Below the pieces are notes generated by a model. That model was not told the origin of the DNA. It was given only the letters and a program-made list of their open reading frames with translations, and did no database searches. A program made the translations under genes and the position numbers. From Natrialba magadii ATCC 43099 (lineage in GTDB: Archaea; Halobacteriota; Halobacteria; Halobacteriales; Natrialbaceae), in assembly GCF_000025625.1 (NCBI RefSeq), contig NC_013923.1:124001-188000 (forward strand): DNA of 64,000 nucleotides. Reading direction: 5' to 3'. Below are positions 22,163-29,738 of this stretch, in pieces; positions within the stretch are counted from its first letter, which is position 1, and each line of letters opens with the position of its first letter.

Positions 22163-23518
22163 ATGAACGAGCCGATACGAGACCGACTCGTGACGCTTCG
22201 ACGGACCCTCCACCGCCATCCGGAACCGGCCTGGCGCGAGTTCTACACGACCGCACGCGTCGTCGAGGAACTCCGAGCGATCGGCGTCGACGAACTGGCT
22301 GTCGGCCCCGACGCCTACGACCCCGCGGACCGGATGGCTGTCCCCGACGCCGACCTCGAACCCTGGATCTCCCGCGCACGTGAACTTGGAGCGGACCCGG
22401 CGTTGCTCGACCGAATGACTGGCGGCAACACCGGTGCCGTCGCCGTACTCGAGTGCGGCGACGGCCCAGCAGTTGGGCTCCGGGTGGACATCGACGCGCT
22501 GTTTATCGAGGAATCGACCGATACAGGGCACGATCCGGCCGCCGAAGGCTTTCGCTCGGAGGTGGAGGGGACGATGCACGCTTGCGGGCACGACGTGCAC
22601 ATGACGTGGGGGCTGGCCGTTCTCGAGGCGATCAAGGAAAGCGACTTTGCGGGACGACTGGTCGTCTTCTTCCAGCCCGCAGAGGAGACCAGCGGCGGGG
22701 GCTGTCCGATGGCGAAAAGCGCGTTCGCAGCGGATCTGGACTATCTCCTCGCCGTCCACGTCGGTCTCGACCATCCAACCGGCGAGGTCGTCGCCGGCAT
22801 CGAAAAGCCGCTGGCGATGTGCCACGTCGACGCGACGATTCACGGCCGTTCTGCTCACGCGGGCAAGGCCCCGGAGGAGGGAGCGAACGCCATGCACGCG
22901 ATGGGAACGGCGATCGAGAACACCTACGGAATCCCCCGACATAGCGACGGGATGACGCGAGTAAACATCGGTCGCGCGGAGGCAGGGACGGCGAGTAATG
23001 TCATTGCCGAACGCGCCCACATGGAGGCCGAGGCGCGCGGCGAGACGACCGAACTGATGGAGTACATGAAGGATCGACTGGCCCGAACCATCAACTCGGC
23101 CGCGACGATGCACGACTGTCAGGCCGACGTCGAGGTCGTCAGCGAGTCACCGCGATCGGACAGCGACCCGGAACTCCAGGCGCTCGTCAGCGAGGTTGCA
23201 GAGGGCGTTCCCGGAACCGAGCGCGTTCTGCCGGCCGCCGACTTCGGTGCGAGCGAGGACGCAACCTTCCTCATGAACCGCGTCCAGCGTGACGGTGGGC
23301 TCGCAACCTATCTCATTGTCGGTACCGACCACCCAGACAGCCATCACACCCCGAAATTCGACGTGGACGAGGCAAGCCTTACCCACGGTGTCGACGTCCT
23401 TTCCGAGACGATTCTCGAACTCGAGCGCCAGCACCCGGTCGCACACGCGAACACGGATTCCGTCGCCTCAGCGGCAAACACGGACACGGATTCTGTCGAC
23501 GCGGGGCGAGGTGCATGA
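22163..23518 (+). CDS. M20 family amidohydrolase (AbgB/DoeB2-like)
   Basis: A 451-residue M20D hydrolase. Features are RRTLHRHPEPAWREF near the start, the metal-binding MHACGHDVHMTWG, the catalytic QPAEETSGGG, and SAHAGKAPEEGANA in the lid/dimer domain. Relatives split N-acetyl- or benzoyl-amino acids; one branch (DoeB2) is named as an N2-acetyl-diaminobutyrate deacetylase. The gene overlaps the threonine-dehydratase-like gene by four bases, so the deacylated product may be the lyase substrate. A paralogue with a nearly identical layout is at 36797. The C-terminal 40 residues are low complexity and vary between the two. Confidence 0.83.
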   Translation: MNEPIRDRLVTLRRTLHRHPEPAWREFYTTARVVEELRAIGVDELAVGPDAYDPADRMAVPDADLEPWISRARELGADPALLDRMTGGNTGAVAVLECGDGPAVGLRVDIDALFIEESTDTGHDPAAEGFRSEVEGTMHACGHDVHMTWGLAVLEAIKESDFAGRLVVFFQPAEETSGGGCPMAKSAFAADLDYLLAVHVGLDHPTGEVVAGIEKPLAMCHVDATIHGRSAHAGKAPEEGANAMHAMGTAIENTYGIPRHSDGMTRVNIGRAEAGTASNVIAERAHMEAEARGETTELMEYMKDRLARTINSAATMHDCQADVEVVSESPRSDSDPELQALVSEVAEGVPGTERVLPAADFGASEDATFLMNRVQRDGGLATYLIVGTDHPDSHHTPKFDVDEASLTHGVDVLSETILELERQHPVAHANTDSVASAANTDTDSVDAGRGA

Positions 23519-24795
23519 CTGACGACACCAAGAACGACGACACCGGCCTCGTTACCCGTGCCGACATCGAGGCAGCGCGCGAGCGCATCGACGACGTTGT
23601 CCACCGAACACCGCTCGACACGTCGCGCACGTTCGCCGATCTGAGCGGCGCGGCGTCCGTCGGGCTCAAACTCGAGAACGTCCAGCGAACGGGTTCGTTC
23701 AAGATCCGTGGCGCGTACAACAAGATGGCCCAGCTCTCGGCCGACGAGCGGGAGGCTGGCGTCATCTCCTCGAGTGCGGGTAATCACGCCCAGGGCGTCG
23801 CGCTGGCAGGGCAGGTGCTCGACACCGACACGACGATCGTCGTTCCCGATGTCACCCCTGCAGCGAAAATCGAGGCCACCCGCGGCTACGGCGCCGAGGT
23901 CGTCGTCGAGGGCGACATCTACGAACGATCGTACGAGTTCGCACTCGAGCGGGCCGCCGAAACCGGTGAGACGTTCGTCCACCCCTTCGACGACGAGGAT
24001 ATCATCGCCGGCCAGGGAACGATCGGCCTCGAACTCCGCGAGCAGTACCCCGACCTCGACACCGTCCTCGTGGCGATCGGCGGCGGCGGGCTGATCTCGG
24101 GGATCGGCACGGTGTTGAAGGCCCACGATCCGACGACGCGCGTGATCGGCGTCCAGCCCGAGGGGGCCGCCCACGCGAAGCCGACACTCGAGTCCGACCC
24201 GGGAGAGATCCACGAACTGCCGGACGTTGACACCGTCGCGGAAGGGATCGCAGATACCAGGCTCCTCGAGACGACAGCGGCGAACGTTCGTGAGGTGGTC
24301 GACGACGTAGTGAGTGTCAGCGACCGCGACATTGTGACTGCCGTCACGTTACTGGCCGAGCGCGCAAAGACCGTCGTCGAGGGGGCCGGTGCTGCCCCGC
24401 TCGCGGCTGCGCTCTCGGATGCAGTCGACGTGGCAGATAAGCACGTCGCCGTCGTAATTTCTGGCGGGAACGTCAACCTCACCGACCATGCCGAACTGAC
24501 TCGCACCGGCCTGCACGAATTAGGGCGCTACGCCGAAGCGAGACTAGCCGTCGACGGCTGGCCGACCGCGGTCAGCGACGTGGTCGAAACCGTCGAAGCC
24601 GAGGGTGCAGAACTGGACGTACTCGAGCGCGCCCGCCGTGGGTCGGGGCTCGGAACGGACGCGGTGGACCACCCGAACCGCGTTCCCGTGACGGTCGGAC
24701 TCGAGGGCAGCGGGCCGGACCATCTCGTGGGCGTGCTTGATGCGATTGCGGAACTCGACAGCGTCGATGTACTTTCTTCGTTGCCGGAAGAGTGA
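23515..24795 (+). CDS. Threonine/hydroxy-amino acid ammonia-lyase (IlvA/EutB-like)
   Basis: A 426-residue fold-type II PLP enzyme. The Schiff-base lysine is in TGSFKIRGAYNKM (Lys63), the SSAGNHAQGVA loop binds substrate, and the phosphate loop is GGGGLISG (about 184-191). An ACT-like C-terminal region (about 335-426) is present. It dehydrates threonine or serine, or a similar 3-hydroxy amino acid, to a 2-oxoacid and ammonium. Being the second gene in an operon with an amidohydrolase, not with isoleucine genes, it resembles EutB of hydroxyectoine breakdown as much as biosynthetic IlvA. The choice is open. Confidence 0.85.
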   Translation: MTDDTKNDDTGLVTRADIEAARERIDDVVHRTPLDTSRTFADLSGAASVGLKLENVQRTGSFKIRGAYNKMAQLSADEREAGVISSSAGNHAQGVALAGQVLDTDTTIVVPDVTPAAKIEATRGYGAEVVVEGDIYERSYEFALERAAETGETFVHPFDDEDIIAGQGTIGLELREQYPDLDTVLVAIGGGGLISGIGTVLKAHDPTTRVIGVQPEGAAHAKPTLESDPGEIHELPDVDTVAEGIADTRLLETTAANVREVVDDVVSVSDRDIVTAVTLLAERAKTVVEGAGAAPLAAALSDAVDVADKHVAVVISGGNVNLTDHAELTRTGLHELGRYAEARLAVDGWPTAVSDVVETVEAEGAELDVLERARRGSGLGTDAVDHPNRVPVTVGLEGSGPDHLVGVLDAIAELDSVDVLSSLPEE

Positions 24796-25124
24796 TTGGT
24801 CTCTCTCCCGTTCAGGTGTGATTTTGTTTTCACTTTGCGCGTTCGAACGGTCGTTTGACGGTTGACTATTGGAACTTGTCCACCGGCGTCGCCTCAATTA
24901 GACTGTCTGACTTGACTTTTTGTTGTGGGTTGCTCTTTGATCCTCCTGGTTTCGTTCCTCTTATCGTCTCAGTCTGTCTGTACGATGTGAGAACTCGCCC
25001 ACGGACTCCATTCGTGGTGTGGTTTTCCATCGACCCCTGGGGGGAACACGTGTATTAGGGGTCGATGGAAATTACTTTGTGTGAACGGTCGAATGAGTGA
25101 CTCATAGCCGTATTTCCGGCATGG
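24796..25124. other. CRISPR leader region
   Basis: These 329 bases hold no convincing gene. They separate the lyase gene from the first CRISPR repeat and contain T-rich tracts and a perfect stem (25024-25071). The repeat orientation (3' end TTGAAG, the usual 5' handle of haloarchaeal I-B crRNA) puts the leader on this side, so the array promoter should be here, reading to the right. Confidence 0.55.
25024..25071. repeat. Perfect 14-bp inverted repeat in the CRISPR leader
   Basis: Arms TTTCCATCGACCCC (25024-25037) and GGGGTCGATGGAAA (25058-25071) match at all 14 positions around a 20-base loop. The stem ends 53 bases before the first repeat. It could be a protein-binding site for adaptation or transcription, or an RNA hairpin. 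Confidence 0.8.
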
Positions 25125-25984
25125 GTTTCAGACGAACCTTTGTAGGGTTGAAGGCTTGTAGTAGCGACGGTAGAACTTCGTCGCGAGGCGTTTCAGACGA
25201 ACCTTTGTAGGGTTGAAGGGGGCGTCGCAAGCGTTGTCCGACCGTCGGGAACGGTTTCAGACGAACCTTTGTAGGGTTGAAGGTTGGTCGGTGGCGTCAG
25301 TCATGCTGTGCCCTCCTGGTTTCAGACGAACCTTTGTAGGGTTGAAGGCTCACGACGGAGACCGGCGTGCTCCGGGTGTCTCGTTTCAGACGAACCTTTG
25401 TAGGGTTGAAGGTCAATGTCGAGGTCGCGCGCCTGGAGCGTCCGGCTCGTTTCAGACGAACCTTTGTAGGGTTGAAGGATAGGATACGTTTACTCGCTGG
25501 TTTCTCGTCTTCGCGTTTCAGACGAACCTTTGTAGGGTTGAAGGTGGGACTGCTCGCACTCCCTGAAAGAGGACTCGGTGTTTCAGACGAACCTTTGTAG
25601 GGTTGAAGGTGGGACTGCTCGCACTCCCTGAAAGAGGACTCGGTGTTTCAGACGAACCTTTGTAGGGTTGAAGGTGATATACCGTTCCCTGTGTTGCAAA
25701 ACGCGACGTTTCAGACGAACCTTTGTAGGGTTGAAGGAACCAAGCTGTTGACGAAGCCGACGGCGACCTAAGTTTCAGACGAACCTTTGTAGGGTTGAAG
25801 TCTGAGACACAGTATCAGGTGGACACGGTGGCGGGAGTTTCAGACGAACCTTTGTAGGGTTGAAGTCGCAGACGGATTGGCGTTACGACACCAGGGACCC
25901 TGGTTTCAGACGAACCTTTGTAGGGTTGAAGCGAGCTAACCGAGGAGGACTACGCCGACCTCAAGGTGGTTTCAGACGAACCAT
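25125..25984 (+). CRISPR. CRISPR array, 13 full repeats plus a truncated one, no cas genes nearby
   Basis: The 30-base repeat begins GTTTCAGACGAACCTTTG and ends TAGGGTTGAAG plus one variable base. Repeats start at 25125, 25190, 25254, 25319, 25383, 25449, 25515, 25580, 25645, 25708, 25772, 25837 and 25903; a broken copy at 25969 keeps only the first 14 bases. The 13 spacers are 33-36 bases. Spacers 25545-25579 and 25610-25644 are identical. The last repeat base is G in the first ten copies and T, T, C in the last three, which fits an older distal end on the right. The repeat is of the haloarchaeal I-B type; no cas gene is in the window. Confidence 0.97.
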
Positions 25985-29170: not shown

Positions 29171-29689
29171 ATGAAATTCGACGAATTCACTGGAGAGGTC
29201 CAGCACCGCCTCGAACTCCCGGATACCGGCCGAACGATGCGAGCAATCCGGGCGACTCTCATGACGCTCGGTGAGCGAATTCCGAAGGGGAACGCCGAAG
29301 ACTTCGCGGCCTCGCTCCCCCTGGAAATCAAGTGGTATATGACGGGCGCGGTCCACGAGCACGGCCAGCGCTTCGACTGGACGGAGTTCGTCCAGCGCGT
29401 GAGTGACATCGAAGGCGAGGGGGTCGACCCACCGGAGGCAGCCTATCACGCTCGGATCATCGTCGATCTGATGGAAACGATCGTCCCACCGTCGGACTTT
29501 CGGCAGTTACGCGATCAGCTCCCGGAGAGCAAGAACGACGAGAACTGGCGCAAACTCTTCGAAGTCGTCGACGCTGGGGGGTGGGGCGATGCTCAAGAAG
29601 CACAAACCGGTGGTGGTCCACAACCCACAACGCCGACCCAGCACGATGCGGAGCCAACGGATGACGCTCGGACTGACGACGAGGAGTGA
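29171..29689 (+). CDS. DUF2267 domain protein
   Basis: A 172-residue protein beginning MKFDEFTGEVQHRL, with ATLMTLGERIPKGNAEDFAASLP, the signature of DUF2267 proteins, whose helical repeats are of unknown function and often occur near stress genes. A disordered acidic tail (about 135-172) ends in a run coded by a 13-bp tandem repeat. It converges with a universal stress protein gene, with the dispersed element copy D between. The start is the Met at 29171, because the preceding 17 codons do not fit the family. Confidence 0.8.
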   Translation: MKFDEFTGEVQHRLELPDTGRTMRAIRATLMTLGERIPKGNAEDFAASLPLEIKWYMTGAVHEHGQRFDWTEFVQRVSDIEGEGVDPPEAAYHARIIVDLMETIVPPSDFRQLRDQLPESKNDENWRKLFEVVDAGGWGDAQEAQTGGGPQPTTPTQHDAEPTDDARTDDEE

Positions 29690-29738
29690 CGACGAGGAGT
29701 GACGACAAGGAGTGACGACAAGGGGTGACGACGAGGGG
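29674..29738. repeat. Five 13-bp tandem repeats at a gene end
   Basis: Five units of TGACGACGAGGAG with one or two changes each (29674, 29687, 29700, 29713, 29726). The first unit codes the final residues of the DUF2267 protein, and the TGA that opens the second unit is the stop codon. The repeat could have grown by slippage and moved the stop. Confidence 0.8.

Follow-up and report, generated by a model that had tools for sequence, protein, structure and literature searches.

Inverted repeats that are conserved within a subtype and act on DNA at integration have been reported for type I-F CRISPR leaders, where they are contacted by Cas2 (PMC12259127). Recruitment in type I-F uses IHF according to a Sulfolobus study, which also describes the recruitment of adaptation proteins to the leader without IHF as largely unknown (PMC9456107). 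In the same study, the type I-A leader of Sulfolobus islandicus has two parts upstream of the repeat, a distal element and, nearer to the array, a small stem-loop; the distal motif (-143..-94) is bound by Csa3a and needed for efficient adaptation, which is lowered when the motif is mutated, and Cas1 prefers the stem-loop near the repeat (PMC9456107). For the type I-B system of Haloarcula hispanica, adaptation has been reported to be governed by the first letters of the repeat and by two anchors within it, AACCC and GTGGG; the available parts of these accounts cover the repeat anchors and the junction, and not the leader element discussed below (PMC3936756, PMC9458426). Leader motifs and their phasing have also been the subject, to judge by the titles, of two catalogues (Santiago-Frangos 2021; Buyukyoruk 2025; cited in PMC12259127).

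Here, we describe an inverted repeat (hereafter the dyad) in front of a CRISPR array of Natrialba magadii ATCC 43099 (order Halobacteriales, family Natrialbaceae), which is a conserved leader component in many haloarchaea and not local to this DNA. It can be likened in kind to the type I-F inverted repeats, and to the S. islandicus leader in the combination of a distal element with a small proximal inverted repeat; it differs from the latter in being a long inverted repeat at approximately -101..-53. To our knowledge, archaea generally lack IHF. The same dyad is found 53 nt before the repeat in the pHH126 leader of the type I-B system of H. hispanica. We did not find a description of it in the literature passages searched, which excluded the leader-motif catalogues and the work on the H. 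hispanica repeat-duplication motif. We treat it as a CRISPR leader motif, a known class, with unusually rigid placement, and claim no priority.

The window analysed, i.e., the whole stretch of 64 kb from NC_013923.1, lies on one contig of a genome with four contigs. An earlier sequence-only reading had noticed 14-nt arms separated by 20 bases and ending 53 bases before the first repeat. The arms were confirmed at 25024-25037 and 25058-25071, and the distance is indeed 53 nt, with the first repeat beginning at 25125; the size of the stem had to be extended, as T25038 and A25057 also pair, giving a perfect stem of 15 bp with an 18-nt loop (TTTCCATCGACCCCT / AGGGGTCGATGGAAA, 25024-25071). This is the sole perfect inverted repeat of at least 14 bp with a loop of no more than 40 nt in the 64 kb, and 100 first-order Markov simulations gave a chance expectation of 0.04 per window with a maximum of 2.

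All parts of the leader are read here on the forward strand. The conserved leader begins on its upstream side with the 5' arm (25024..25038; TTTCCATCGACCCCT, general form TTTCCRTCGACCCC), as seen from the starts of BLAST matches and from a sequence logo of the leaders. This arm is followed by an asymmetric loop (25039..25056), which in the logo has a G run after the 5' arm and TATT before the 3' arm, and which ends with TATTG in most leaders and with TATTA in the N. magadii window. The 3' arm (25057..25071; AGGGGTCGATGGAAA, general form GGTCGACGGAAA) is nearly invariant. Between it and the array lies a spacing segment of nearly fixed length (25072..25124; 53 nt in the window and 52 in both sister species, N. 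chahannaoensis and N. hulunbeirensis), which includes a weakly TATA-like run of T residues, a conserved TA, a putative transcription start approximately 20 nt before the repeat and a small leader-proximal inverted repeat (25107..25123). The latter reads GCCGG-ATTT-CCGGC-ATG in the sister species; the N. magadii window departs from this by a single base of one arm (GCCGT) and by an additional G just before the repeat, as might be expected of a disused array. The array itself (25125..25982) comprises 13 whole repeats (GTTTCAGACGAACCTTTGTAGGGTTGAAG), all matched by Rfam CRISPR-DR24, and a truncated last one, and its repeats are of the type I-B kind. Upstream of the leader is a threonine ammonia-lyase-like gene (23515-24795; TIGR01127, 369 bits, just below the cut-off of 379).

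Within the genus, the leaders of N. chahannaoensis and N. hulunbeirensis contain an identical dyad; in both species the same leader precedes a longer array and adjoins the same upstream sequence. An exact pattern with 13-nt arms was found in these three Natrialba genomes among the 125 of the family, and was absent from the four remaining Natrialba genomes. In a three-way Natrialba alignment, variable columns numbered 0/48 in the dyad, 2/53 in the spacing segment and 13/228 in the upstream intergenic part (the last count omits 7 of 20 variable columns, which are leading alignment gaps), and on these counts the dyad does not differ significantly from the upstream part (Fisher p 0.13). Both changes in the spacing segment, the extra G and one substitution, belong to the N. 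magadii window. A second array of N. magadii, located on another contig near 1,647,600 (approximately 1647503-1649413), has a different repeat (GTTCCAGAACTACCCTTGTGGGATTGAAGC, with distal repeats drifting to variants) and a different intervening sequence, and its own dyad again stands at 53 nt upstream.

Taken by itself, the exact pattern would have suggested a feature specific to the genus, a view that was overturned by a BLAST search with the leader and by a relaxed pattern. The BLAST query (24850-25160) gave matches in 111/392 sampled genomes of the order, some of them via the repeat and nothing else. In genera other than Natrialba, several matches start at query positions 175-177 (25024-25026), where the dyad has its outer boundary. 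We then used a pattern that is independent of the repeat, TTCCRTCGACC N{10,30} GGTCGAYGGAA, which fixes most arm letters and is thus blind to degenerate dyads. It occurred at 71 places in 47/384 sampled genomes of the order, covering 25/93 genera, and the reversed control pattern had no match in the same 384 genomes. The 337/384 genomes without a match were counted irrespective of whether they have arrays. All 71 dyads (68 loci, L079-L146, plus three Natrialba loci) lie directly upstream of a CRISPR repeat and none elsewhere in the 384 genomes. The strict pattern had no match in 241 genomes sampled from the rest of the phylum, and 8/53 order genomes matched in the same search; viral contigs, searched with one pattern, also gave none. 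A symmetry arisen by chance or confined to one lineage, without function, could be argued from the full 15-bp perfection, which is limited to three of the 125 family genomes; set against a core at a fixed position in 25/93 sampled genera and the 0.04 occurrences expected in the window, its probability is negligible.

The distance between dyad and repeat is nearly fixed. Measured from the end of GGAA, it is 53 nt in 68/71 cases, 52 in two (L119 and L145) and 54 in the N. magadii window, the last due to the extra G. The spacing was read directly for L080, L083, L102 and L115, which the regular expression had missed (the repeat of L083 begins with C and not G, and L115 ends within the repeat), and a 27-nt match at L090, a false positive of the regular expression, was left out. 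The total dyad length was 44-48, although the pattern permitted 32-52. The repeats behind the dyads differ (GTTTCAGACGAACC..., GTTACAG..., GTTCCAGAACTACCC...), and mean identity between leaders was 45% in the segment from dyad to repeat and 94% in the 3' arm, for 70/76 dereplicated leaders that were chosen by arm position. Phasing to the leader-repeat junction was at the same offset in those 70/76 real leaders and within 2 nt of it in the other six.

To select leaders by their junction only, we used CATG|GTTTCAGACGAAC, which gave 39 matches in 30/392 genomes, 30 of them kept as loci. These provided 30 leader rows, or 26 after dereplication at 90%; repeats with another repeat just upstream were left out. 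In these 26 leaders, the 3' arm was matched at at least 8/11 letters in 26/26, at -64 in 25/26 and at -66 in 1/26; a complementary 5' arm (at least 8/11) was present in 24/26, a level that approximately 5% of mononucleotide shuffles of the upstream sequence reach. The dyad starts 4 nt after the cas2 stop codon in H. hispanica (L148) and 1 nt after it in Haloferax alexandrinus (L147), thus the whole intergenic leader there consists of the dyad and approximately 53 nt, and in these two species the leader begins with the dyad. Across genera and across different repeats, the dyad is thus present, constrained in sequence and fixed in its spacing to the repeat. The search of leaders in relatives that the sequence-only reading had proposed as a check has therefore come out in favour of the stem: instead of being missing or not conserved in sister arrays, which that reading had named as the contrary outcome, the dyad is position-locked in the second N. 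magadii array and in leaders of other genera.

A logo was built from the 70 leaders having the 3' arm at -64. Clustering at 80% had given 77 clusters, of which one is a false leader and six are real leaders with the arm displaced by 1-2 nt. Here, GGTCGACGGAAA at -64..-53 is nearly invariant and is preceded by TATTG at -71..-67 (A-70 100%, T-69 87%, T-68 78%, G-67 92%) and by GGGG at -84..-81 (G 78-94%), with C runs and the 5' arm farther upstream. Downstream, the logo has a weak T-run at -49..-46, TA at -31/-30, T-22 and A/T-20, the TATA-like stretch being poorly conserved, and the small inverted repeat next to the junction ends with CGGGCATG or similar. From these positions beside the dyad, GGAAA may be a BRE, the T-run (about -50..-44) a TATA box and TA at -31/-30 a WW element; from the usual spacing of such elements to the start, transcription would begin near -20. 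Haloarchaeal promoters are described as having a BRE (CGAAA), a TATA box (TTWT) and a -10 WW element (PMC4983044). The same source reports transcription start sites for the three CRISPR RNAs of Haloferax volcanii. If this promoter assignment holds, the dyad would be untranscribed and the small inverted repeat would form the 5' end of the transcript.

Such an arrangement could mean that the dyad is a promoter operator, i.e., that a dimeric activator or repressor bound beside the BRE and TATA box controls pre-crRNA transcription with no direct role in spacer uptake. The 3' arm ends with GGAAA just where a BRE could sit, followed by the T-rich stretch at -49..-46 and TA at -31/-30 (compare the promoter elements given in PMC4983044), and the leader-distal factor of Sulfolobus, Csa3a, is reported to activate CRISPR transcription (PMC9456107). 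On the other hand, the TATA-like stretch is weakly conserved, strict dyads in the 384 genomes are confined to CRISPR leaders, and what is nearly fixed, beyond the distance from dyad to TATA, is the distance from dyad to repeat. We consider an operator possible but somewhat doubtful.

Another possibility is that the stem acts as RNA, either as a hairpin in the 5' region of the pre-crRNA or as a terminator that insulates the array from the upstream gene. Folded as single-stranded RNA, the stretch with its perfect 15-bp stem has -30.3 kcal/mol, with a z of -5.1 relative to 200 shuffles that preserve dinucleotides; any inverted repeat of this kind should fold strongly, and the value is therefore no evidence of RNA action. 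A match of an Rfam miRNA family over the stem (24.5 bits, gathering threshold 72) was taken as chance. We examined the pairing of the arms in 76 of the 77 clusters, excluding the false leader. Pairs 5, 7, 8 and 10 are constant, and some leaders show variation at pairs 4, 6, 9, 11 and 12. Positions 13 and 14 form a pair in just 47/76 and 18/76 leaders, respectively, which implies that the perfect 15 bp are not general and that the conserved paired core is approximately 9 bp (pairs 4-12).

An RNA hairpin would be expected to tolerate G.U and avoid A.C in the sense strand, and this was not observed. At pair 6, A.C occurred in 26/76 and G.T in 1/76 leaders (11/35 and 1/35 in the repeat-anchored set), and pairs 1-12 together had 46 cells of A.C type and 18 of G.T type; pair 4 was reversed, with the wobble type in 8 and the A.C type in 3 of 76. 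In a comparison of the arms for covariation, Watson-Crick pairs were present in 801/912 cells versus 784 in shuffles (reached by 0/2000), a comparison that ignores relatedness and uses a set partly selected by its arms; pair 6 gave a Fisher p of 0.001, again ignoring relatedness. The signal was weaker in the repeat-anchored set (340/420 versus 332, 78/2000, p 0.04, likewise with relatedness ignored). The arms look more like two protein half-sites, with the 3' one under stronger constraint. Considering the types of mismatch and the putative promoter that overlaps the 3' arm, the dyad is better regarded as a DNA element than as an RNA hairpin. We rejected the RNA hairpin and the terminator mainly on the mismatch types, and also because no T-run follows the stem; the frequent lack of pairs 13-14 elsewhere and a predicted start downstream of the stem point in the same direction. 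An antisense transcript could tolerate the same A.C mismatches. Altogether, an RNA role is very unlikely. Thus, among the three roles that had been offered at the outset, docking is possible and is favoured here, an operator is possible, and an RNA structure is disfavoured by the mismatches at pair 6 and by the putative promoter.

The dyad is probably a docking site for proteins that add spacers, that switch on the array, or both, as judged from its sequence and placement. More specifically, we favour with middling confidence the view that it is a docking or architectural DNA site for spacer acquisition, which makes up the upstream half of type I-B leaders in haloarchaea. Its half-sites, CCRTCGACC and GGTCGAYGG, lie approximately three helical turns apart and flank the asymmetric core, and the dyad stands at a nearly fixed distance of approximately five helical turns from the first repeat. 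The Cas1-Cas2-Cas4 adaptation complex may bind the dyad as DNA, or a dimeric host factor may do so and either recruit the complex or bend the DNA for it, and such binding would direct integration to the leader-repeat junction. The 3' arm may double as the BRE of the array promoter, in which case the same element would also touch transcription. Docking is favoured because the distance that is rigid is that from dyad to repeat, and not merely that from dyad to promoter: a fixed distance to the repeat should be unneeded for transcription, and would be expected if the site has to be juxtaposed with the point of integration. However, the placement relative to the promoter would be just as suitable for the binding of an activator or repressor, and this by itself would keep the dyad at a fixed distance from the TATA box. 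In addition, as the leaders share ancestry, part of the constancy in spacing is inheritance.

The two functions might also be combined in one dual element, in which a single factor bound to the dyad would activate the array promoter and recruit the adaptation complex. The dyad overlaps the presumed BRE and, at the same time, keeps a constant distance to the integration site, and a precedent may be seen in the proposal made for Csa3a in the Sulfolobus study (PMC9456107). By this analogy a dual element is conceivable, but we think it improbable.

A further observation concerns the likeness between arms and repeat. The arm consensus TTTCCGTCGACCCC resembles nt 2-15 of the repeat (TTTCAGACGAACCC) at 11/14 positions in the same register, a level reached by 0.1% of shuffled arms; the match in fixed register was 8.4 versus 3.9, computed after the resemblance had been noticed. 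The likeness is a hint that would point to the integrase itself as the binding protein. The dyad might then be a pseudo-repeat, whose arms imitate the first half of the CRISPR repeat in inverted orientation to each other. With the surfaces that read the repeat, the integrase complex would bind this decoy and so be kept at a defined distance from the real junction. This would provide leader specificity without IHF, and, with the outer arm serving as BRE, transcription and uptake would compete for the site or share it. We regard the pseudo-repeat as rather unlikely. The idea that each dyad copies its own repeat was rejected: at its best register, the 5' arm matched its own repeat at 8.63/14 positions on average (7.13 for shuffled arms), but the repeats of other genomes at 8.73, i.e., there was no co-variation.

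With regard to the copy in the N. magadii window, the machinery for spacer uptake appears to be gone. The Cas1 profile TIGR03641 had no match in the N. magadii genome, and it matched three other Natrialba genomes (two over the cut-off, one under) and the Haloferax volcanii control. The Cas1 and Cas3 proteins of a sister species also had no match in the N. magadii genome, in a search that had no positive control. In a sister species, type I-B cas genes are located on the contig bearing the array with the same leader; the order in N. hulunbeirensis is array, cas operon and second array, all in the same direction. In N. chahannaoensis, what follows the second array corresponds to approximately 32.4-35.8 kb of the window. 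The truncated last repeat, this downstream match and the failure to find Cas1 suggest that the cas locus was lost by recombination between the two arrays, which is the simplest reading for the N. magadii lineage. As Cas1 was not found, the dyad in the window looks like a relic that likely no longer serves spacer uptake, and it is probably the relic of an array whose cas locus is lost.

Several other features of these arrays were recorded. The base that follows the 29-nt repeat (25125-25932) is G in the ten leader-proximal units, T in the next two and C in the oldest unit; the sister loci L014 and L015 have C at this place in 27/27 and 48/48 units. Copying from the leader-proximal unit, or a base derived from the PAM, would fit this pattern. 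At 25515-25644, two adjacent repeat-spacer units are identical, representing a tandem duplication. Elsewhere in the window, 29670-29736 contains a tandem array of a 13-bp unit (GGAGTGACGACGA, 5.2 copies).

Given its nearly invariant position and its presence in the tractable H. hispanica, the dyad makes the question of how adaptation proteins are recruited to the leader directly testable. It is also a place to look for the difference among the arrays of H. volcanii, in which locus C takes no spacers and P1 and P2 do, with leader differences being suspected in that report (PMC7521656). Moreover, the dyad offers a signature independent of the repeat for finding and orienting haloarchaeal arrays.
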